DNA from: Tomocerus qinae | Taxonomy: Eukaryota; Arthropoda; Collembola; Entomobryomorpha; Tomoceridae | NCBI GenBank assembly: GCA_020055645.1 | Contig: CM034546.1 | Span: forward strand, 126,377,875 to 126,441,874 | Length of the DNA: 64,000 bases | Direction of reading: 5' to 3' | In this document: positions 5,364 to 61,604 of the stretch, piece after piece | Layout of the letters: every line of letters begins with the position of its first letter | Position numbering within the stretch: the stretch's first letter is position 1 | Translations under genes and position numbers: made by a program | Notes under the pieces: generated by a model | Databases searched by the model: none | Told to the model about the DNA's origin: nothing | The model's input: only the letters and a program-made list of their open reading frames with translations

Positions 5364-7873
5364 CCAAAATTCTCTTAAATTGATATACCCCTCAGAATGA
5401 AATTAATGTAAAGAGAGTTGAAAATTGCCAGAGAAATTTTTTAAAATTGTTTAAATCTTTTTTAATCCTGAATTTAAAATAATTTAAAGTGATTTAATTT
5501 GAATTTTCAAATTTCCTAAAATTGATATGCCTAATCAGAATTCCTTTTAGAATACAGTTAGTATATGGAAAGTTGCTGAAAATTGCAAGAGCTGAATGTG
5601 AATGAATTTGGGAAATGAGTATACTAAGTTTGGATTTGTATGATTTGGTTGGTAAGGTCTATGTATATGCACAAGTGGTGTAGTATATGTATATGATGCA
5701 ATACTTATTAACACGCGACTTAGAGGATTTATATGTCAATAGAGTTAGTGGATGGGAACAAAGTGCACATAAATCTTGAATCTAGCGTCCGTACACAACA
5801 AAGTCCATTTTTGTGTTCCCCAAACATGGGATCTTTGTAAATTGTTGAGAATGCCTGTACGTATATGGTGTTCATTCTAATTGGTGCGGGAATCATGTCC
5901 AGATTTACATTGGCTGTATAGAGAGGAATACGAAGTACATAGAAAAGGCCCATTTGCAATTCAGGTCGGTGCCTAAATAAATGTTTTTAAGTGCTTGCTT
6001 TAAAGGATCGATCTCTCTCGTGTACATTTGGCCACTGGCCACGGTGACCTGCACTCGGCACTCACACGTTTCGATTTCTAGGCAGGCGCCCGCAGTTTAC
6101 AGGAGTTTTCTACCTGTAGGTAGGTTAGCCAATGTATATACCATTATATATATATATTTAATACGGCATTTATATTTAGGTCACACTGCTACCAAGAAAA
6201 GCTTGAGACGATTCTGCAGATCCATACTTTCCTCCACACACTTTACATTAGAGAATATTTCTACTCCACTTAGCCCGCTACTTTTATAGCTCCACAAACT
6301 GACATTACCTTTTACCTTCCCTTACATCTCATTTCTTCGACCTACGAATAATGCATCACCGTTCTCACGAAATTAGGTGCCAGTTCAAACCCTACCCGAT
6401 AACTTATTTACTCAACTAATCTAATTAATATACTTTACGCTCTACACGTTCCTTTAACTGCTCATTTTCAAGAACACACTAAAAACATACGTCTTTATTA
6501 TGACGTCACTACATACACCTCTAATAAATTGCTGTCCTCTTCTTCCCTGATAAATTACTCTCTTTCTATACACACACATCTATCTACCACACAATATATT
6601 TTAACACAGACACTAAAATAATTGAATTCTCTATTTTTAGACAATCGAAAAATACATCAACCACAAAAACAATAAATGTTACCCAACTTGAAACAATTAA
6701 ATACTCTATTTTAAGACCAAATGCTAGAAAAAAGTCCAACACAGTCAAAAAGTGGAATACATTGTAGTAAAAATATAAAAAATTACTGGGAGAGCATAAA
6801 ACTGAACAATAAAGTATAAAATAATATGTAATCCCATTTTAATACAAGTAATTTAAAATATTTAAGTGCCCATGAAAATAAACTGCAATTTAGTATTAAA
6901 TAATAATACACGCAAATAAATGATTATATAATTTGTAATGACATTAAAAACTTGATATTATATTGACGTGGGATAACAAGAGTGTATTAAAATAATTTAT
7001 AGTGGTATGGTAAAATTTAGCTTGACATGCACCCCCTTAAAAATATAATAAACATAAAAGTGCATTAAATTAATTGAAAGTTATTTTGAGAGCAATATTA
7101 GAAAGTACATGAAAAGAAAATGGCCGGTGTAAGATGATAATAAATATTAAAGTGTAATTACATGAGAAAAGTTGGGTTTTATTGGCATTTGATGACACGA
7201 ATGTCATAAGCAGCCATCGCTTTCCATTACAGTTCAATTGAAATCATTTGAGAGCCATCAAAATATACGGAGCGTGTATTCTTGAGAGCATTAGTGAACT
7301 TTCCCTCGACTTTCTCTGAAGCATCATTTTATATTACACTCTATCCTTTCATCCTACATTTTTTGGAGCATCTAAACATCACTCTCTATCTATCTCTAAT
7401 CATTGCGCAAATGGAAGCCATAAAGTAGCTCTGTCTGCCTTCGTCCGTATAAAGTTAATCGGCTAAGCTGTGTAAGGATGTACAACGGAAAATGTGCATT
7501 AATAAAATACAAGGCTCATGTTGAGAGAAAGTCAAATGGAAAGAGAAAAGTTTGTAATTCTTTAATGCTTTCATCTGTGCAAGGCGTTCTGCAAAAATTC
7601 CTTCGTGATTTTCCTCCTCCCGTTACCCGTTTGCATGCTCCGCAGCTCATTATAAATGGATTATGCACCCACGTTCACCAAAACCTAACACACAATTGCA
7701 TATTATACCCAAATCATAGACTCACTCAGACACAACCTACTTTTATCTCTTCTTGCTTATATTATCCCACCGTAGAAATCCTATTTTATTCGTACCTTTT
7801 CACTACCTAACCCATTTTAGTTTTTATAACTATTTTTGCAAAAATACCTTTGCAAAAACCAAATTATAATTTC

Positions 7874-9649: not shown

Positions 9650-9860
9650 AAATGAAAATTAAATTTAAAGGTAAAATTATTTTAATTATTGCTACAGAAA
9701 TTATTTTTAATTGATATAAAGTATGAATGGTATAATTAATATATATTTATATAATATTTACAAATATAATTTATATCATATTTATTAATATTATAAATAA
9801 TTTTACATAATAATTTATAATTTTATAATATTATAATATTTACTACACTTATTGGAGTTT
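9650..9860. repeat. AT-rich low-complexity tract
   Basis: Nearly all A/T, built from variants of ATAATATT and TTTATAAT. No coding potential or regular period seen. Confidence 0.6.
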
Positions 9861-50000: not shown

Positions 50001-53000
50001 ATGTCCACTATTTACTGGGAATACATTTTCGTATGTGTTACTACAAGTTCAGAGGATTAATTAAAATCTACTCACTTTTGTATAGTAAAAATTCATTATT
50101 GATTTAGAAAGATAACCTTGTAGCTAAACTGCTGTTAAAAGGAATTCCATCTTTAAGCCAATAGAATTTCGTTTTCACCGATCCAAATGCAGAACACACC
50201 AGCATCAAATTCTGTCCTAAAGGGACAGGACCGTTCGGCTGCCAAGACACTTTCTAGTTTACATTCATAAAACTAATTTCAATTTCAACCCAAAATTATG
50301 AATTTCATTTATTGCTTTCTTCTGGAGAATTTGGTGATGCGACAATAATTTCAACATTTTTTAACTTATACCTTAATTCTTAATTCTGGAAAAGCTGTGA
50401 GGTCATGAAAAGAGCTTTGTGCGTATCCTGGTAGAAGTTCACCTCCATTGTCTAGGAGTGTATTAAGAATATCAAAGTTTTCATCGAACATCGATTGTTT
50501 TCCAGCAAATTTGTAGGTAATGATGGAATTTGATCTAAAAGAATTTCAAAGGTTAAACAGAAACAGCTAAACTTACTTTTCATTTAAAAATATGCATTTA
50601 GATTTCGAGAAGTTACCTCATGGAAATAATTTCCACATTGTTTATGGATTTTCCCAAAGTATTTCTGAGTCGTCTCGTCAATTCCCTTTTCAGTGAATGA
50701 ATCTCATCAGGAATAACTGTCGAATTTTTTTCGTCCCAAGTTTCCAGAGTAGATGGGTTGTTGAGAGTCAAACTGCCATTGTAAATCACTTGCTCTACGA
50801 CACAACTAAATTCATTAACTTCTACCAAGGATCTTTGATTTATTTCTCACTTTCAATTTAATCAATACATTAAAAAATTATGCATTGATTAAGGTTTAAA
50901 ATTAATTTTGTAACTTACCTGAATGTATTCTTAAACTCTCTAGGATTACCTTGAAACTTTTTATCGGCATCTGTTGATTCTCGGTCATGATAACGAGAAT
51001 CACTCTTCGGTGGAGGCGAAGAGCAACCTGCAAAGCAGAAAATAACAAATTTGTCCACCATTTATAATTGGGTCAATAATTAAAAATTACCATTTCTTAA
51101 AGAATATAATTGCTATACAGGGTGTCCTCGAAACATATCTAACACAACTAATTTCCCATGTTTCGCGGATACCATGTACTAATAATAAAAAATAATTAAT
51201 AAAAGTTAATTCTTGGAAAACAATAGTTAAAGTTTGTTACCCCTGTTATTGTCTAAACATCTTGAATTTATAACTATAAACGGTAACCTACTGTTTATTG
51301 GTGGAGGATCTTTTGTTTCACATCTATCCCCTTTAAATCCTGTTCCAGAGCAATTACAATTGAAGAATATATCATCTATCATCCTGACAATTTAAATAGA
51401 TTTACAATAATGTAATTACTACTTAACTAGCTTTAAAATCAAGGAATAATTCAAAAGTAGTTTTCTAATAATTTAAACGTAGACATGATTTCTCACCTGC
51501 ATTTACCACCGTTTAAGCAGAAGTTGATATTTTGGGTTGGATCGCATTTATATCCAAATTCACAATTGGGTCCAAAGCGTCCTTCGAAGCATTCGCAATT
51601 AAATTCCCTATAGATTAAAAGTAGCTTTAATTCTTTTATAATAACAAAAGGCATCATATATACTGTTACAATTATCGCTAAGAGATATTTTTCAAATAAT
51701 AACCGCAGTGAAAATCGCTTCTGATTGGTCGATGCATTTTTGAAATTGACCAATCAGAGCACAGAATTCCATAGCAAAATTTTATATGATTTTCATAAAT
51801 CACTAGCGCCAATGCCAATCCACATAAAAATCAAATACAGTTATATTTTTGTCGTGATGTTTTTATACTTGCTTGCATTTTATATTTTTCATTCCTACAA
51901 TCGATTTGGCCAATCCATTCTACAATTGAGCAGCTTGATATCCATACAATCTTATTATCATCGTTACCTTTAGCAATAAAGCTGCAACGCCTATATATTT
52001 AAAAAAAATTAAAAGTATATATAAACCGGCTCCAGAAAAACCACAGCATCACTGTTTCATCATAAAACTTTTATAGAATCCGATAATCGCAACGGAATTG
52101 TCGTATTGTATATTACTAATTTGTATCATAATTATATTTGTAATGGTGCCTTAACAACACATGGTGCCTTAACAACACATGGTGCCTTAACAACACATGG
52201 TGCCTTAACAACACATGGTGCCTTAACAACACATGGTGCCTTAACAACACATGGTGCCTTAACAATACATGGTGCCTTAACAACACATGGTGCCTTAACA
52301 ACACATGGTGCCTTAACAATACATGGTGCCTTAACAACACATGGTGCCTTAACAACACATGGTGCCTTAACAATACATGGTGCCTTAACAATACATGGTG
52401 CCTTAACAACATATGGTGCCTTAACAACATATGGTGCCTTAACAACACAGGGTGCCTTAACAACATTTGGTGCCTTAACAACATATGGTGCCTTAACAAC
52501 ATATGGTGCCTTAACAACATATGGTGCCTTAACAACACAGGGTGCCTTAACAACACAGGGTGCCTTAACAACATATGGTGCCTTAACAATACATGGTGCC
52601 TTAACAATACATGGTGCCTTAACAACATATGGTGCCTTAACAACATATGGTGCCTTAACAACACATGGTGCCTTAACAACACATGGTGCCTTAACAATAC
52701 ATGGTGCCTTAACAACACATGGTGCCTTAACAACACATGGTGCCTTAACAACACATGGTGCCTTAACAATACATGGTGCCTTAACAATACATGGTGCCTT
52801 AACAATACATGGTGCCTTAACAATACATGGTGCCTTAACAATACATGGTGCCTTAACAACACATGGTGCCTTAACAATACATGGTGCCTTAACAATACAT
52901 GGTGCCTTAACAACATATGGTGCTTTAACAACACAGGGTGCCTTAACAACACAGGGTGCCTTAACAACATATGGTGCCTTAACAACACATGGTGCCTTAA

Positions 53001-55435
53001 CAACATATGGTGCCTTAACAACACATGGTGCCTTAAAGTAAATTCAATAAAGATTCATCGGAACTTATTCTAGAGGTTATATTTTAAAAATTTCACAATT
53101 TTGTCTTTGATTGGAAGACACACGGATCACAAAATGCAAATACAGAAATATGTATCAATTTCAAGTTTCAAACGATGATATAAATTTCAAAGTTTTCAAA
53201 AAGTATAACCTCTAGAGTAAGTTTTGAAGGCTTTTTTACACTTACTACATGGGTGTAGGATCAGTAATCTCAGATCCTGTAGGACTTTCCCAAAATGGTA
53301 CGAATTTTCGCGATGCCCATTCACCCTCTATGATAATTTTTGCTGGTTACCTAACAGCGTCCCTATTTGTGGCAAAAACAGTCTTTTGAAATCTGCACCA
53401 CTGCCTTAAACGGTGCAAAATTTGCTTTACAGAATCGAAAACTGACTCATTTTTTTGGGAATCTAACTTTTATTAAACCAATTCAAAATTCAAAACATCA
53501 ATGTAGATGGCCAAATTGAATTTTCCTGCACATGAAGTAATAGAAACCTTGAGCGCACTGAAAGCTGGAAATTTTTTTATACAGAATGCATGCATTGTTC
53601 CTGTAATGAAATTTTTTGTGCCTTGTAAGTCGTAGGAGACTATAGACTGCGCAGTGCATAATTGTGTACTGCCCTGCCACCAATAATTGTTCTGCTTTGG
53701 ACTTGTTGGAATTTGCCTCATTATGTGCGTTATTATGTGCTTGGCTGAGTTTTAGAATTACGGCAAATCAACACATGGAAGTACAAACATACAAACGGAA
53801 TTGTCACGTGACTGACTTTTGCCGTTTATCTAATAGTAGTGATTCCCAAGGGAAATATTTGTTTCAACACTGAACTTTAAACTACAGACTTGTGATAGGA
53901 TAGGAAAATACGGACTAACACTTTTAGCATAATCGCAAACTAATACACTGTACTCAACTCTATGATGCTTACTTGCTGAACAGAGCAACTGCGTGCATGT
54001 GTAACAATTGATTATTACTTAATTTATGCAATATATTTTCAATGATATCTTGTAATTGTAAATTTAAAAGTAAATCTAATTAATTAGTTTGTACTACTTC
54101 ACAGAGAGAGATGAATACGCAGTGTAGTAGTGATGATAATTTGATGCAAAATGTTATGATTATATGTTTGTCCAGGTCCAGACTGCTTAGTGAAGTAATA
54201 ATAAATTGTAACACATGCAAGCAGTTGCTCTGTTCAGCAAGTAAGCATCATAGAGTTGAGTACAGTGTATTAGTTTGCGATTATGCTAAAAGTGTTAGTC
54301 CGTATTTTCCTATCCTTTCACAAGTCTGTATAGTTTAAAGTTCAGTGTTGAAATAAATATTTCCCTTGGGAATGATTTATGAAAATCATATAAAATTATG
54401 CTATGGAATTCTGTGCTCTGATTGGTCAATTTCAAAAATGCATCGACCAATCAGAAGCGATTTTCACTGCGGTTATTATTAAAAAAATATCTCTTAGCGA
54501 TAATTGTAACAGTACACAGGAAACAAAAAAGGTATACTCTTTTTTTTAAAAAGGTAAAAAGTATTATTTTTATAAAAAAACAGCAGTCCTTTTTATCTTT
54601 CTACCTTTTTTACCTTATTTACATGTAAAGTGGAAGTAAATGGGGCATGCTGCTATATCAAAAAAGGCAAAAAAAGAATTGTTTTTAAAAAAGCTTGCTC
54701 CTGCCTTTTTTATAAAAAAGGCAAAAGACGTCCTTTTTGTTCCCTGATTATACAATCTTAAGAAAATGCAAAAAATAACTAAAAAAATTAAAGTGCTTAT
54801 GATCGAGCTTACTTAAATGCTTTGTCAATATAACAATTTCCTGCGTATGAGCATCGTTTGAACGTGCAGCTCTTGTTTGACTCCCAAGATTGGGATTGGG
54901 ATGTGTTAGCACAAAGTGAAACTACTTCATAAGTAATATTAAATCCATAGCGGTCCAGTAAGTTTCCAGTTCGCAAGTGGCCTTCGTTTGTAGAGTTGAT
55001 AACTAAATCTATTTCCAAAAAAGGTCTTTCGGAGATGATGACGACTGCCTTTGTCCAGTCGTTGAAATCTGCATTTCCATAATTAAAAACGTTTCTTCTG
55101 TTGTTTAGTTGAGAATATTCCAAATTTTGGCGATCGAAGTTTTCGTGGTGATAAAATATCAAGTAGCGAGTGTCCGTGAGATAAAGCTGGGTTAAATAAA
55201 TCCTGATTTGGAAAGGAGGAGTCCAACTCGATGCATTCAGTACCCATTTTCTGTCAAACGGAGTGGGAAATTCATTGGGAAAATTGGGTGTTTGTATAAT
55301 CCCGTGGTGAGTGTTGTTGTCTTCTGGGTCAATATCCAGAAACTCTACTTTGTCCCAAATATCCGATGCTCCTAAACTGATTGTCGAATGTTGCAGCAGG
55401 ATAATCACCGTTACTAAACTTTTGAAAAGCAGCAT
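47083..55435 (-). CDS. CUB-EGF2-SEA-Ig2-HormR-GAIN/GPS protein without 7TM (16 exons, 1012 aa)
   Basis: Exons: 55435-54813, 51607-51497, 51383-51292, 51027-50919, 50805-50617, 50534-50372, 50253-50117, 50040-49932, 49281-49183, 49138-48892, 48799-48537, 48435-48271, 48152-48058, 47947-47825, 47751-47488, 47332-47083. All phases agree. Order: signal peptide; CUB-like domain (TPNFPNEFP); two EGF-like units (CECFEGRFGPNC, CLNGGKCR with CNCSGTGFKGDRC); SEA-like region; two Ig-like domains (MLVCSAFGSV to DAGIYSCK; ILMCRDTS to ANYSCVS); Cys/Trp-rich HormR-like domain; GAIN domain ending in a GPS-like motif (SCATLRY, EMSCH, IQCHCSNFGVF). The SEA-Ig-HormR-GAIN order resembles adhesion GPCRs of the ADGRF type. 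However, the GPS lacks the NHLT cleavage stretch, and translation stops about 14 residues later with no membrane helix. A possible donor (TTC|GTAAAA) overlaps the stop, but no 7TM exon follows in the window. Most likely a secreted, uncleaved receptor-like protein. Confidence 0.8.
52143..53040. repeat. 18-bp minisatellite, about 50 units
   Basis: The unit is GGTGCCTTAACAACACAT. Units differ mainly at positions 13-18 (ACACAT, ATACAT, ACATAT, ACACAG, ACATTT). Because 18 is a multiple of three and no unit carries a stop, both strands appear open for about 300 codons (GALTTH on one, HHVLLR on the other). The array lies inside an intron, and no spacer or independent promoter is visible. I treat it as non-coding. 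Confidence 0.9.
53058..53225. mobile_element. small foldback element
   Basis: GAACTTATTCTAGAGGTTAT at the left and ATAACCTCTAGAGTAAGTTT at the right form about 23-bp inverted ends around about 120 bp of AT-rich sequence, directly after the minisatellite. Confidence 0.55.
53843..54372. mobile_element. 530-bp foldback element with 3-bp TSD (TGA)
   Basis: Ends are TTCCCAAGGGAAATATTTGT and ACAAATATTTCCCTTGGGAA-like (TTCAGTGTTGAAATAAATATT then TCCCTTGGGAA). The arms are about 160 bp and almost perfectly inverted. TGA flanks both sides (53840-53842, 54373-54375). The inverted copy at 51803-51787 reads TAGTGATTTATG without the insert and so acts as an empty site. No coding capacity. Confidence 0.8.
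54517..54746. mobile_element. CAGGGAAC hAT-type MITE, copy 6
   Basis: Left end CAGGAAACAAAAAAGG (one changed base) and right end TTTTGTTCCCTG. The flanks ACAGTACA and ATTATACA match at 5 of 8. It sits against the outer end of the 142-bp inverted repeat in intron 1 of the GAIN gene. Confidence 0.75.
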
Positions 55436-55807: not shown

Positions 55808-58038
55808 AGATCGGCAACAGTCTTTATAGTATCTTCTCCCAACCCAGGAATAACATTTGAATATAATGTATAAATGTTGTAACATTTTATGCAAAGTTGT
55901 TTGAGGTCTAGAATCTCGATCTCAACTACCCTACCAAACCAAGATAAAGTCAATGTAACAGTAAGTAATATCCCAGGCATGTTCTAGTGCAAATCAGGGT
56001 GTTTTACAGTAAATTAAGAAAGGGAATTACATGTATAATATTTCTCGATAACATTTTCTCCAGGCGACAAAAAATGCAAACATTAGATGGCAAAAGCAAA
56101 AGATCCATTGAATCTTATTTCCATGAAATGAAACATTATGATTGATTTTTCTACTTTTCACATCTTTTTTCTTAAAGTCGAGCAAATAAATATTGATCAT
56201 CGTGCCAATAACAAATAAATAAAAGCCAAATTTTCCAATCAATATAAATTTTTAAAACTTCCAGTTATTTCTTTGGTGTAGACAATTTTGCGGTAATCAT
56301 GATGATCCATCATAAATATTCTTAAAAATCGTTCTTACAAATTAATGTACTGCTGGCGCCAGAATGAACTTAATTTTTATTGACATTTTTGACTCCTAAA
56401 TACTTTGCAGTGCTAAAGAATGTCTTAACTTCAAGATTAATTCATTTGAAGATAGTTATTTAATGTATTTGATATCACACTTCATGGCGCTATGAGATGA
56501 CGCATGAGGGTAGCGTTAAGTAGGCATCTAAAGTAATTTAGCTTTTTATGACAAGTTAAATGTTGCTTGACATTTTATAGTGTGCAAATAATATATTATA
56601 TATTCATATGTAATGTAATGTACCAATTGTAACGTAATGCTTAACTTTTATTACGTTAAGTAAAACGACAGTCAAGAAACTTTGCAGAAGATCAAATACA
56701 TTTTGTCAGAGTGCAAATAAATTGCTACAAAGACCGACGTTTAAAAATACTTGTTTTGCTCCAGGTCACTAATGGTTAATAGTTTGCATCACAAGACTTA
56801 ATCATGCTGTAAACGTAAAAGTCTGACTTCATTTTTTTAAAGTTACAGGCTTTAATAAGCATATCCGTGTTTTGATTTAATTGCTAACTAAATTAAAGAT
56901 AGTAATTATTTTCCAGAAATTACTGGTCAAAATTTGTTGACTGCATTAAACGTTGCATAATAAACTTATTACGACTACGAGTGATAATTTTAAAAGTTGA
57001 TAATGTTTGAGAGGTCAATAATTGAAAGTGATCAGCATCATTAGAAATAAAAGATCCTCAAGCCAGAATATATTAACTTCAACAAATTTAAAGCAAAACA
57101 AATTAATTATATACTCTGATTTAATAATGCAAAACCAGAATTAACAACTACACGAACGAAGTACCCATCTTTTTCCTACTAATCTGAAACTCAGTACCAA
57201 AAACAGACATGATCTTAATTTAACTGTTGCACACATTAATCCTCTTCTATAATTACAATATAAACAAGGACGTATTTAGGGGGTGCTTAAGCACCCCCTA
57301 AATTCCCTAAAAACACAATATAAAGTGGTTTAAGACATAAGAAAAATCCGCTGACATGGTTAAGCACCACCTAACTTTGATTTTTGGATACGCCGTTGAA
57401 TATGCACCCAAGCCATCGATAATGTATTATTTAGAAACAGGTCAGAGACACCTAATTTCAGTACTTTATTTTTAGATCATCAATAAAAATTTAAACCAAT
57501 TTCGCTTTAATGAAAGTAAAAGGCAAGATTCCGCGGTATAGTAAAAGTTTAGAACCCGTTTATGAAAACTTTATAAAACAGTTTACAAATTATTTTGTAG
57601 CAATGTTAAAAACATGTAGCTCATTCAAAACAATTGGTCAATACACGAAAATTAACTAAATTGGGCACATAGAAGTACGTATAATATACGGATGAATAGT
57701 CATTAACAGGAGGTAATTAAATAGGGCAAATTTTTAGTCTTATTACTTTGTTCATCAAAGCATGGCGCTAAATTAATAATAAAATCGTTTGTTTATAATA
57801 TAGCCTTTAATCGTCAAATAATGTGTTATTTGTTATCACTAACAATTAGGTATTTAGCTAATGTATGGGAACAATAAAAACGCTTGAGACAGAAATAAAT
57901 GAATAATTGTTTATAACTGAAGATTTCCATGTGCCTCAAATCCAAGGATCCGGTCCGGTCAAATAAAATAATTTGTATACTTATTGACAAGGGGATGTCC
58001 CAATTGAAGTACAAATGACACCTCTTAAAGGTGAAAAG
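55808..58038. other. intergenic, no gene seen
   Basis: AT-rich sequence without exon motifs. A repeat near 57268-57400 starts GGACGTATTTAGGGGG and contains the palindrome GGGGGTGCTTAAGCACCCCC. Confidence 0.4.
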
Positions 58039-58576
58039 TTAATTTATATGACAGTTTGCTTGAATCATATAACACGTTGTATATGTGAGCGGTGAGCAGG
58101 GGCTCACTAACCCTTGACCCTTGACGAACTGATTGCGAAAAAAGAAGTCATATCTAAAAATAAATAAAATAATTTGCATTATGATGTTAAGTATAAAGCC
58201 AAATAGAAAAGTTCATACTTATAAAAATTTTGTTTTGATTATTATTATTAATTTTCAAATTAAGACCATCAGTACCTTTCCGGGCAAGTAATGACAATGC
58301 CGTTTTCAGTCCGGGAGGAGGATGGTCATAAGCTGGATTGGTGTGAGCTTCACGATTGAGTTGAAGAGTCTACTATACAATCTTATGTAATTTTTCACTT
58401 TTTTATTAATATTTATTGTACAAAAATTAAATTGAAATACGTCCACTAAGATATACTGAAAAAAACATTTACCTTCATGACGTTTCATAAAGACAGTCAT
58501 AGAGCTAAACGGTAGTTAAATTGGACTTGCAACCAACTGCAGAAAAACCACCTTCTTCTCTATTCCTGAACGGAGA

Positions 58577-58972
58577 CAAAACCAACTCCAGAAAAATCAC
58601 CTTCTTCAAGGAACCTTCCGGAAAAGACCGCACCAGCTCCAGAAAAATCACCTTCTTCAAGGAACCTTCCGGAAAAGCGGCACCAGCTCCAGAAAAATCA
58701 CCTTCTTCAAGGAACCTTCCGGAAAAGACGGCACCAGCTCCAGAAAAATCACCTTCTTCAAGGAACCTCCCGGAAAAGACGGCACCAGCTCCAGAAAAAT
58801 CACCTTCTTCAAGAAACCTTCCGGAAAAGACGGCACCAGCTCCAGAAAAATCACCTTCTTCAAGAAACCTTCCGGAAAAGACGGCACCAGCTCCAGAAAA
58901 ATCACCTTCTTCAAGGAACCTTCCGGAAAAGACGGCACCAGCTCCAGAAAAATCACCCTCTTCATCCTTCCT
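58577..58972. repeat. 51-bp minisatellite inside the PIWI exon, 8 units
   Basis: The unit begins CCAGCTCCAGAAAAATCACC; starts are at about 58579, 58631, 58681, 58732, 58783, 58834, 58885 and 58936. Read on the minus strand in the PIWI frame, each unit gives ELVPSFPEGSLKKVIFL. The unit starting at 58631 is one base short (AAAAGCGGC for AAAAGACGGC). Confidence 0.88.
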
Positions 58973-59535
58973 TGAAGGGAAGCAGCAGTTAAGAGTCTGA
59001 TGTTCTCCGCCAGTTCATCCTGAGTGGAGAAGAGCGAGATCGTACTGTTGAAGCAACGAGCCAAATAGGAGTTTGAGCAAATGCACAATAACGCACCAGC
59101 TACACTCCTATCTCTTCTACCCACACAATCCCTTATTTCCAGAATTTTGGCATAAAAAGCACTGCAAAGGAACTGAAAAAAACAAAAGGTCGAGTGAACT
59201 TTACAAAATTATGACCATATTTAGTTATAGATATCAAAAATTATTAAATGAAAAATAACCTCCTTAGTCAATTCTGCTGTGTGAATAAAGTTCTTGACAG
59301 CTGAATAAAGTTCAATTCTTGCATGTCCAAGAATGACAAAAATCATTTGAATTTTGTCCCTTCCCTGTACTTGATTCATGATTTTAACAATGGCCTTGGC
59401 CTTGATATACGACTGTGGGCGATTAGACGGAATTCCAACTCTGCAAAATTACATAATTTAATGCGGTGGAGGACAATGAATGAGGTGGAAATAAAAATGT
59501 AGGATTTTTCTCACCCGTCACCCACTCTTCAAGTA

Positions 59536-59790
59536 AGGTACAGTATACAATGCACTAATAATTTCCGGATACTTTGTACAATACCAGAATATTTTTTTTG
59601 GTTTACAACAAACCTAACCTAATTTCAATCAAGCATTTACATGAAAGTGCATTTTACAGTAAATAAGTTGTTTTAAATTAGGTTAGGTTCGTTATAAACC
59701 AAAATCTTGGTAACTAAAAATGCGTATATCCTTGAAATTTTTCTTATGCACAAATTACATAATAATAAAACCACATTGTATGCTGTACCT
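59536..59790. mobile_element. 255-bp Tc1/mariner-like MITE (TA TSD)
   Basis: Ends AGGTACAGTATACAATG and CATTGTATGCTGTACCT, flanked by TA on both sides (59534-59535, 59791-59792). A second inner inverted pair, AACAAACCTAACCTAATTT and AAATTAGGTTAGGTTCGTT, makes it nearly palindromic. Lies in an intron of the Argonaute-like pseudogene. Confidence 0.7.
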
Positions 59791-60141
59791 TAGTTGAGGA
59801 GTGAGTGACAAAAGGAGGAGTGAGTTATAGGACAAAAACTCTCTATCTAGTTCTTCATTTTTACTTCAATTCATTCTTCCACTTCCTAACTTCACTCCAC
59901 CTCCGTCCTCCAACTCGGCAACCACTGTCTTACTTTCACCCTTCCAGATTGTTGATGCGATAACCCAGAGGCTCACTAATGCGTACTTACGGTATAAGAT
60001 TGTCTATTCCTCTGTCCGAATGCGTGGGGACAATCATGCACCAAGTTCCCATAATAGTTGTGACATGGACAAGATTGTCTGAGCTACATACAGGTTAGAA
60101 ATCAAGTAATTATTACTTTAGATAATTACTAGTTTGCTAAA

Positions 60142-60351
60142 CAGGGAACAAAAAAGGTACTCCTTTTTTACAAAACGGTAAAAAGTACTACTTTTTCTAA
60201 AAAAGCAGTCCTTTTTACCTTTTTTACCTTATTTACATGTAAAGTGGAAGTAAATGGGGCAACTTGCTACAACAAAAAAGGACTGCTTTTTTAAAATCGT
60301 ACTCCTGCCTTTTTTATAAAAAAGGCAAAAAAAGTCATTTTTTGTTCCCTG
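60142..60351. mobile_element. CAGGGAAC hAT-type MITE, copy 7
   Basis: CAGGGAACAAAAAAGGTACT to ATTTTTTGTTCCCTG. The flanks TTGCTAAA and ATGCTAAG match at 6 of 8. Core TTTACATGTAAAGTGGAAG present. Lies between the first two exon blocks of the Argonaute-like pseudogene. Confidence 0.8.
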
Positions 60352-60883
60352 ATGCTAAGTTTAGTAAAAAGCCAAAATTTACATCGGAATACTATTGATC
60401 AGTCTATTCTTGTTCCCTGCCCCCTTCAAATCTCAACCTTTCACTTGGCTTAATTTTCACTGGACTTCACTTTCACTCGTCCAGAATTTGGTCCAAACCG
60501 TTATTGAATCGAACTCCGCATTTTGTCATGTCGGCTTGTATCTTTAAAATGTAATGTAAAGACAATTAATAATAACCGATGTTACCATTACAATCTTTTA
60601 TCATTGCATATAATTAAAAGTTTAACAATAAATAAACAAAAACAAGTTTGAAATCACTAATGATGAATGAGTCACAGTTTACCTGTTATTAGCTACTCCA
60701 AATTATTTCCATGAAATTCATTAAAATCGTCGCACGTTGGTCGGGAACCATATACAGATGTTGTTGAGACAGACATATCCCTCAGTCTATCATTAACTGG
60801 AAATTCTGGTCTTCGCCTAATCTAGTTATATAGCACAGTTCAGGAACGAGAAGATTTTGGTCTCCTATTGAGACTCCAACGTT

Positions 60884-61205
60884 TACCTTGACGAACGGAT
60901 TGAGGCACAAAAGTTTTCCTTGACGAACGGATTGAGACACCAAAGTTTTCCTTGACGAGCAGATTGAGACACCAACGTTTACCTTGACGAACGCATTAAG
61001 ACACCAAAGTTTTCCTTGACGAACGGATTGAGACACCAAAGTTTTCCTTGACGAGCAGATTGAGACACCCAAGTTTTCCTTGACGAACGCATTGAGACAC
61101 CAAAGTATTCCTTGACGAGCGGATTGAGACACCAAAGTTTTCCTTGACGAGCGGATTAAGACACCAAAGGGTTCACTAATCCTTGACGAACGGATTACGG
61201 TAAAA
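60884..61205. repeat. 32-bp minisatellite, about 10 units with a 3-unit higher order
   Basis: The unit is TTGACGAACGGATTGAGACA plus CCAAAGTTTTCC. The bases after GACGA follow ACGG, GCAG, ACGC, ACGG, GCAG, ACGC, GCGG, so a 96-bp trimer has itself been duplicated. No spacers. The array grows out of the last exon block of the second Argonaute-like fragment. Confidence 0.88.
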
Positions 61206-61604
61206 ATCATATCTAAAAATAAATAAAATAGTTTACATTAAGGTAATATGTATAAGACCAAATTGAAGTACATAATTATAAAACTTTTGTTCTGACCATT
61301 ATTATTAATTTTCAGTACCTTTCCGGGAGAGTAATAACAATGCTGACAACAGCCGGGAGGAGGATTTTCTTAAGCTGGATTGTTGTGAGCTCCACGATTT
61401 AGTGAAGAGTCGGGGTTTAATTCTTTTATCAACTATAAACGTTGATCTCCGATCCTACAGCCCGTAGACTTTTTCTATGATGTTCTAAAATGAATATAAT
61501 TTATAATATTTTTTATTAACATTTATCATACGACAAAATTGGAATTGAAATAAGATATACGGAAAAAACATTCCCCTTCATTTGTTCCATAAAAACAGTC
61601 AGTG
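61190..61604 (-). pseudogene. second Argonaute/PIWI C-terminal fragment
   Basis: Blocks: 61604 to about 61573 (LTVFMEQMK), 61389-61319 (LKKILLPAVVSIVITLPE) and 61212 onward (YDFYRNPFVKD, then stop). They parallel the last three blocks of the copy at 58.0-58.5 kb, including the flanking intron sequence (GTACCTTTCCGGG, ATATCTAAAAATAAATAAAA). Here the middle block keeps the frame that leads into YDFY, which shows the extra base in the other copy is secondary. KRH is lost (MEQMK). Only the 3' part is present. Confidence 0.6.

Follow-up and report, generated by a model that had tools for sequence, protein, structure and literature searches.

Sequence Analysis of a Decayed Piwi-Subfamily Argonaute Pseudogene and the Minisatellites of Its Cluster

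The minus-strand stretch described here is, judged by its sequence, a decayed Piwi-subfamily Argonaute pseudogene. It lies in the window, by which we mean the whole 64,000-nucleotide stretch analyzed (C1:126377875-126441874, from a genome of 334 Mb in 115 contigs), and what it displays most likely amounts to the ordinary decay of a pseudogene inside a duplication cluster rich in minisatellites, within an unusual gene-family expansion. Between 61.6 and 57.9 kb, the minus strand holds the remnants of two PIWI-gene copies arranged head to tail. The copy flagged by the original prediction starts with an L2-linker exon (60854) immediately after a 32-bp array, continues with MID and PIWI exons, and extends as far as its true 3′ end (57915). 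The second, upstream copy consists of 3′ exons only (61587-61169), with the 32-bp array (61169-60867) at its end.

Identity and exon map of the two copies

The homology of the flagged copy to PIWI/MID exons is established by exon collinearity and by tblastn with a paralogue from the same genome, L033, whose spliced product (six exons, joined by eye) matches Siwi (5guh) at 2.1e-92 and the Pfam Piwi profile (PF02171) at 3.5e-87. With the L033 PIWI protein as query, tblastn recovers window 59442-58993 (E = 8.5e-23) and 58185-57954 (E = 5e-10). The first of these matches bears out the proposed PIWI exons, which lie at 59449-59262 and 59172-58996. Read to the letter, the profile search suggested with the original prediction gave the result named there as refuting it: the window pieces tested, which left out the last exon of the flagged copy in its PIWI frame, gave no PF02171 match up to E = 10, and the exon C piece gave none up to E = 1, whereas the paralogue matches the same region as above. 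Because the homology is visible through same-genome paralogues, the missing profile matches do not refute the PIWI identity. Sub-threshold matches of the flagged pieces to Pfam SopA_C, DUF6567, and BBH37 were set aside, as was a PDB match to an RNA polymerase III subunit (E = 0.4) from a search that carried no PIWI signal. The joined exon-block translation has 64 matches in its own genome, six in the window, nine in the cluster beyond the window, and 49 elsewhere; 36 of these 49 start less than 6 kb from a listed Pfam Piwi match, and the other 13 have none so near. The features of the two copies, from upstream to downstream on the minus strand, are as follows.

61169..61587, minus strand: 3′ PIWI exons (NIIEKVY.., ..VITLPERY, start of YDFF..) of the upstream truncated copy; blastn to L033 4474-4909, 79% over 366 aligned bases including introns
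60867..61169, minus strand: 32-bp minisatellite, 9.5 copies, of the FLVSQSVRQG exon piece (B-type); TRF, unit matching L033 4871-4899
60369..60854, minus strand: flagged copy, L2/MID exons interrupted by stops and frameshifts (..LLVPELCYIT.., ..IQADMTKCGVRFNN..); blastn to L033 2879-3285, 66%, and translations
60141..60351, no strand assigned: MITE-like inverted-repeat insertion with ends AGGGAACAAAA..TTTTGTTCCCT in an intron of the flagged copy; the same L033 intron is without it
59947..60088, minus strand: PIWI-gene exon (ELGTWCMIVP.SDRGIDNLI..); blastn to L033 3341-3480, 81%
59262..59449, minus strand: exon A (RVGIPSNRPQSY..FVILGHARIELYSAVKNFI); 80.6% over 196 aligned bases to L033, with indels, and tree
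59129..59172, minus strand: exon B, truncated, its open frame not the PIWI frame; blastn to L033 3547-3885 stops at window 59126
58996..59129, minus strand: exon C (GRRDRSVAGALL..FSTQDELAENI), abutting exon B through a deletion; blastn to L033 4136-4260, 76% over 152 aligned bases
58971..58992, minus strand: left remnant of exon D (the RDG exon), NGCLPSR codons; gapless L033 match, 0/1000 shuffles as high
58564..58970, minus strand: 51-bp minisatellite (A-type) over the RDG catalytic block; TRF and unit cores
58448..58537, minus strand: right remnant of exon D (VGEGQLNYVFSS..MK) and intron start; local alignment to L033 exon D, 4/1000 shuffles as high
57915..58327, minus strand: last exons and true 3′ end of the flagged copy; blastn to L033 4687-5104, 72%, 81% over 454 aligned bases including introns, and a tblastn row at 57995-57954

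Pieces related to the MITE-like insertion are present in an inverted-repeat element at window 54513-54738.

Identity of the aligned window blocks to L033 is 75-81%, indels of non-triplet length are numerous, and the MID-PIWI reading frame of the flagged copy is not intact, being interrupted by frameshifting indels and stops in several exons. Exons B and C abut through a deletion that, compared with L033, removed ∼250 bp, among them GFDVYH with the first catalytic Asp. Only one residue of the D-E-D-H catalytic tetrad is kept: the first D falls inside this deletion, the E is retained (STQDEL), the second (RDG) Asp is overlaid by the 51-bp array, and the QYAHK histidine has become Y, close to a stop. 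The tetrad positions (Siwi D670, E708, D740, and H874) were read off the L033-Siwi alignment. The closest known systems are the Piwi/Aub-clade Argonautes Siwi and Drosophila Piwi (6kr6), to which the flagged copy is tied by its exon-wise collinearity with L033, whose spliced product matches Siwi; unlike them, it begins at the L2 exon and lacks three of the four catalytic residues. The tblastn match together with the lost residues, frameshifts, and stops upholds the original prediction of a PIWI-clade Argonaute that is dead or dying. The consistent phase that it read across the blocks is contradicted by exon B (59172-59129), whose open frame FLCSAFYAKILEIRD differs from its PIWI frame (PSQCFLAKNVGNKGLMSIATK in L033) and which the deletion joins to an out-of-frame exon C; nor does exon C share its frame with the remnant of exon D.

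The 51-bp array and the origin of its unit

TRF places the array at 58581-58964, with a period of 51, 7.5 copies, and 97% matches. Eight unit cores start at 58957, 58906, 58855, 58804, 58753, 58702, 58652, and 58601, with a single step of 50 nt (58702 to 58652), so that the eight-unit array with a 1-nt loss is as first described; units 2-5 are 96-100% identical. Genuine exon D flanks the array on both sides, NGCLPSR on the left (0/1000 shuffles) and VGEGQLNY..MK with the intron start on the right (4/1000 shuffles). Among the window and the 48 loci compared with it, the unit was found in the window and in the loci of its cluster only. The 1-nt loss had also been held responsible for breaking the frame; it is real and confined to one unit, but other frameshifting indels, stops, and deletions lie outside the array.

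In the unit, the open frame of the preceding block continues as ..LELVPSFPEGSLKKVIF..; this had been called the PIWI frame, but the left exon D remnant (58992-58971) aligns without gaps to the NGCLPSR codons and thereby sets the PIWI frame on NCCFPSRKDEEGDFSGAGA.., not on the ELVPSFPEG frame. The unit is open in five of its six frames. Shuffled 51-mers have a mean of 2.8 open frames, 98% of them have at least one, and ∼5% reach five; because shuffled units are mostly open in some frame, an open frame through a 51-bp repeat is little evidence of coding, a warning that applies beyond this case. At the same site, the sister array in L031 has a period of 52 bp (6997-7268) and those in L030 are irregular. 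For this reason the 3 × 17 length is no sign of coding, and its divisibility by three looks like coincidence.

We consider it unlikely that the unit arose when the RDG..EL part of the PIWI exon was tandemly duplicated in frame, with the frame lost later through the 1-nt deletion. The array does sit exactly at the RDG block, VPSFPEGSLKKVIFLEL and RDGVGEGQLNYVFSSEL are alike by eye at 6 of 17 residues, and two sister copies carry PIWI homology past the left anchor, at best 4/1000 shuffles for L030a and 5/1000 for L031 (both against the L031 8430 exon D), while L030b, right-anchored against L033, reaches 1/1000. Local alignment of the window unit to L032 1940 gives z = 4.3 (0/200 shuffles) under one scoring scheme and 2.1 (10/200) under the other; for an L030 unit aligned to the same target, the corresponding values are 3.1 and 1.3. 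However, when the window array itself is aligned to four exon D sequences, 509-944 of 1000 shuffles are as good or better with left anchoring and 112-521 with right anchoring, whereas two array-free sister exons aligned to L033 as positive controls give z = 8.8 and 7.5. The remaining coding-strand local alignments of the window unit stay at z ≤ 2.4, and the claimed frame differs from that of exon D. The shuffles in all alignment tests described here, those of the other arrays included, preserve base composition only, not dinucleotides. Against the antisense of the L042 gene, the window unit gives local scores of z = 4.9 (0/60 shuffles) and 2.1 (2/60) under the two schemes. The VSQSVRQG exon was rejected as a source of the A-type unit, since the L031 unit has to it only a weak local match that some shuffles equal. 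With the anchored alignments at the level of shuffled sequence and the local ones mostly so, as compared with z = 22 for the 32-bp array against its exon, we do not uphold duplication of part of the PIWI domain as the source of the unit. The unit may instead be a sequence inserted at the site, or one diverged beyond recognition; a repeat inside an exon need not derive from that exon.

PIWI-derived arrays and the history of the cluster

The repeat unit of the 32-bp array (60867-61169) is a piece of the FLVSQSVRQG exon from the second, truncated copy (z = 22, 0/60 shuffles as high; z = 13.8 in a second run), and by this alignment the array is clearly a minisatellite that is truly PIWI-derived and adjoins the flagged copy. 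TRF arrays with periods of 15-120 were tested against PIWI exons in 20 sources (the window and L030-L048). Two exon pieces have turned into minisatellites, in six arrays (four B-type, two C-type) with periods of 30, 32, 36, 37, and 43 bp. Each B-type array corresponds to L033 4871-4899 (FLVSQSVRQG) or a few bases around it.

Window 60867-61169: B-type, 32 bp; L033 4871-4899
L030 8271-8729: B-type, 36-37 bp and multiples; L033 4871-4899
L032 785-1346: B-type, 30/57 bp; L033 4871-4899
L032 3859-4006: B-type, 36 bp; L033 4871-4899
L031 7686-7817: C-type, 42-43 bp; L033 2826-2878
L032 3733-3856: C-type, 42-43 bp; L033 2826-2878

Other arrays with z > 5 (window 9731-9799, two in L036, and those in L037, L038, L043, L046, and L048) were set aside because they correspond to intron positions of L033, a few of them extending by some bases into an exon edge. 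Minisatellites of period 15-120 cover 12.0% of the 30 kb of L030-L032 versus 3.3% of the 150 kb of 16 other paralogue loci; the density is uneven, with 18.3% in L046, 4.7% in L031, and 3.8% in the whole window. L030 (C1:126442001-126452000) is dense in other arrays, including 8-bp GGGGTGCT-type blocks, a 19-bp array, and a 27-bp array of ∼38 copies. An 18-bp tandem array of ∼50 copies occupies window 52143-53036, with several frames open on both strands.

Coding repeats inside an Argonaute are already known from the glutamine-rich repeats of Drosophila Ago2, which, in the available text of PMC3002974, are likewise tandem repeats of variable number within an Argonaute gene. There they belong to the amino-terminal domain of an expressed protein, whereas here the repeats lie in dead PIWI/RDG, C-terminal, and L2 exons. 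Among the literature matches listed, from a search with subscription papers mostly outside its scope, no title concerned a minisatellite in a PIWI pseudogene. The present cluster documents the decay of a silencing gene through partial head-to-tail duplication and through minisatellites made from the same exon pieces in separate copies.

The cluster was seen at C1:126.432-126.462 and 126.504-126.514 Mb only. In an exon A tree of 20 rows (18 different), its five copies split from the 15 others at 100/99, in an analysis in which the bootstrap was not settled; the root is a midpoint root, and only under that root are the cluster copies monophyletic. The head-to-tail junction TTCGTCAA..GTCTT.GCTTCGTCAGCGAATAAT.CATGA is common to L031 and L032 with small differences, and since both sites meet at the same junction there, the partial duplication is older than the L031 and L032 copies. 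The window has the junction in eroded form, in which the 32-bp array directly abuts the L2 exon and the C-site is absent. The L033 sequences TCGTCAGCGAACAATG (L2 exon) and TCGTCAAGGAACAGTG (last exon) are similar short sequences, and from this likeness we infer that they probably mark the breakpoints of the duplication.

Differences were summed by codon position (1/2/3), the sums being added by hand over pairs that are not independent. Cluster copies versus L033 give 34/27/83 in exon A and 23/34/44 in exon C, which suggests that the ancestor of the cluster was formerly constrained. Among themselves, the five cluster copies give a flat 65/56/60 in exon C and 72/59/98 in exon A, leaning to position 3; this suggests that their divergence is mostly neutral in exon C and less clearly so in exon A, and that some of the divergence may predate the loss of constraint. 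L033 may not be a clean functional reference. Its exon A differs from that of L042 by 6/6/8 and from that of L044 by 3/3/2, with little third-position excess, which makes it an imperfect yardstick; in exon C, a third-position excess is present between L042 and L033 (1/2/9).

The explanation that we hold with high confidence is that a Piwi/Aub-type PIWI gene lost constraint, that its segment from the L2-linker exon to the FLVSQSVRQG exon was duplicated head to tail, and that the dead copies, of which the flagged one is a 3′-terminal copy, gathered deletions, insertions, and minisatellites. The arrays would have grown by slippage or unequal exchange once function was gone.

The original prediction had also entertained an expressed PIWI protein with an extended repeat. 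Two open frames (169 and 183 aa) do run into or through the 51-bp array, and the near identity of units 2-5 could be taken for a young variant still expressed and under selection, but with three of four catalytic residues gone, stops and frameshifts in the exons both upstream and downstream, a copy that begins only at the L2 exon, and different periods in the sister arrays, such a protein is very unlikely. It is exceedingly unlikely that the arrays are artefacts of assembly, error-prone as tandem arrays generally are in assembly: their units and lengths vary between copies and their fillers are common with the neighbors, and an artefact is hardly to be expected where arrays differ between copies yet occupy homologous exon positions. 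Highly improbable, too, is the idea that the dead cluster, with its repeats of PIWI exon sequence, serves as a small-RNA source regulating the many live PIWI paralogues, or, in a milder form, that minisatellites arise again and again at the two short exon motifs of PIWI copies because these are intrinsic hotspots. If the small-RNA reading were true, a silencing gene family would police its own copy number.

The PIWI family across the genome

Grouping the 150 listed Pfam Piwi matches, out of 153 reported (a figure that is itself a lower bound), and joining those less than 4 kb apart yields at least 71 PIWI-domain loci in the 334-Mb genome, which is probably more interesting than the flagged array. 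All 150 listed matches are more than 100 kb away from the window, so decay of the flagged cluster has gone too far for it to appear among the listed profile matches. A number of the listed matches contain stops, and some of these may be introns read through. The pea aphid, for which the available part of PMC9962485 gives eight Piwi-like and two Ago3 genes, offers a comparable case of PIWI genes multiplied within one genome, but there are at least 71 loci here, a number of them with stops.

Within the window, a reverse-transcriptase-like reading frame at 62313-63089 matches Pfam RVT_1 at 4e-05, below the cut-off. On the same contig, C1:45.55-46.32 Mb holds 23 of the at least 71 PIWI loci. Twelve dispersed PIWI loci in both orientations occupy C3:18.57-27.63 Mb (including L049 and L050), most with three matches alike in spacing and scores. 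Two sampled C3 copies are 94.6% identical over ∼2975 bp, with the homology ending sharply on one side, as if these copies had been spread by a mobile or segmental process.
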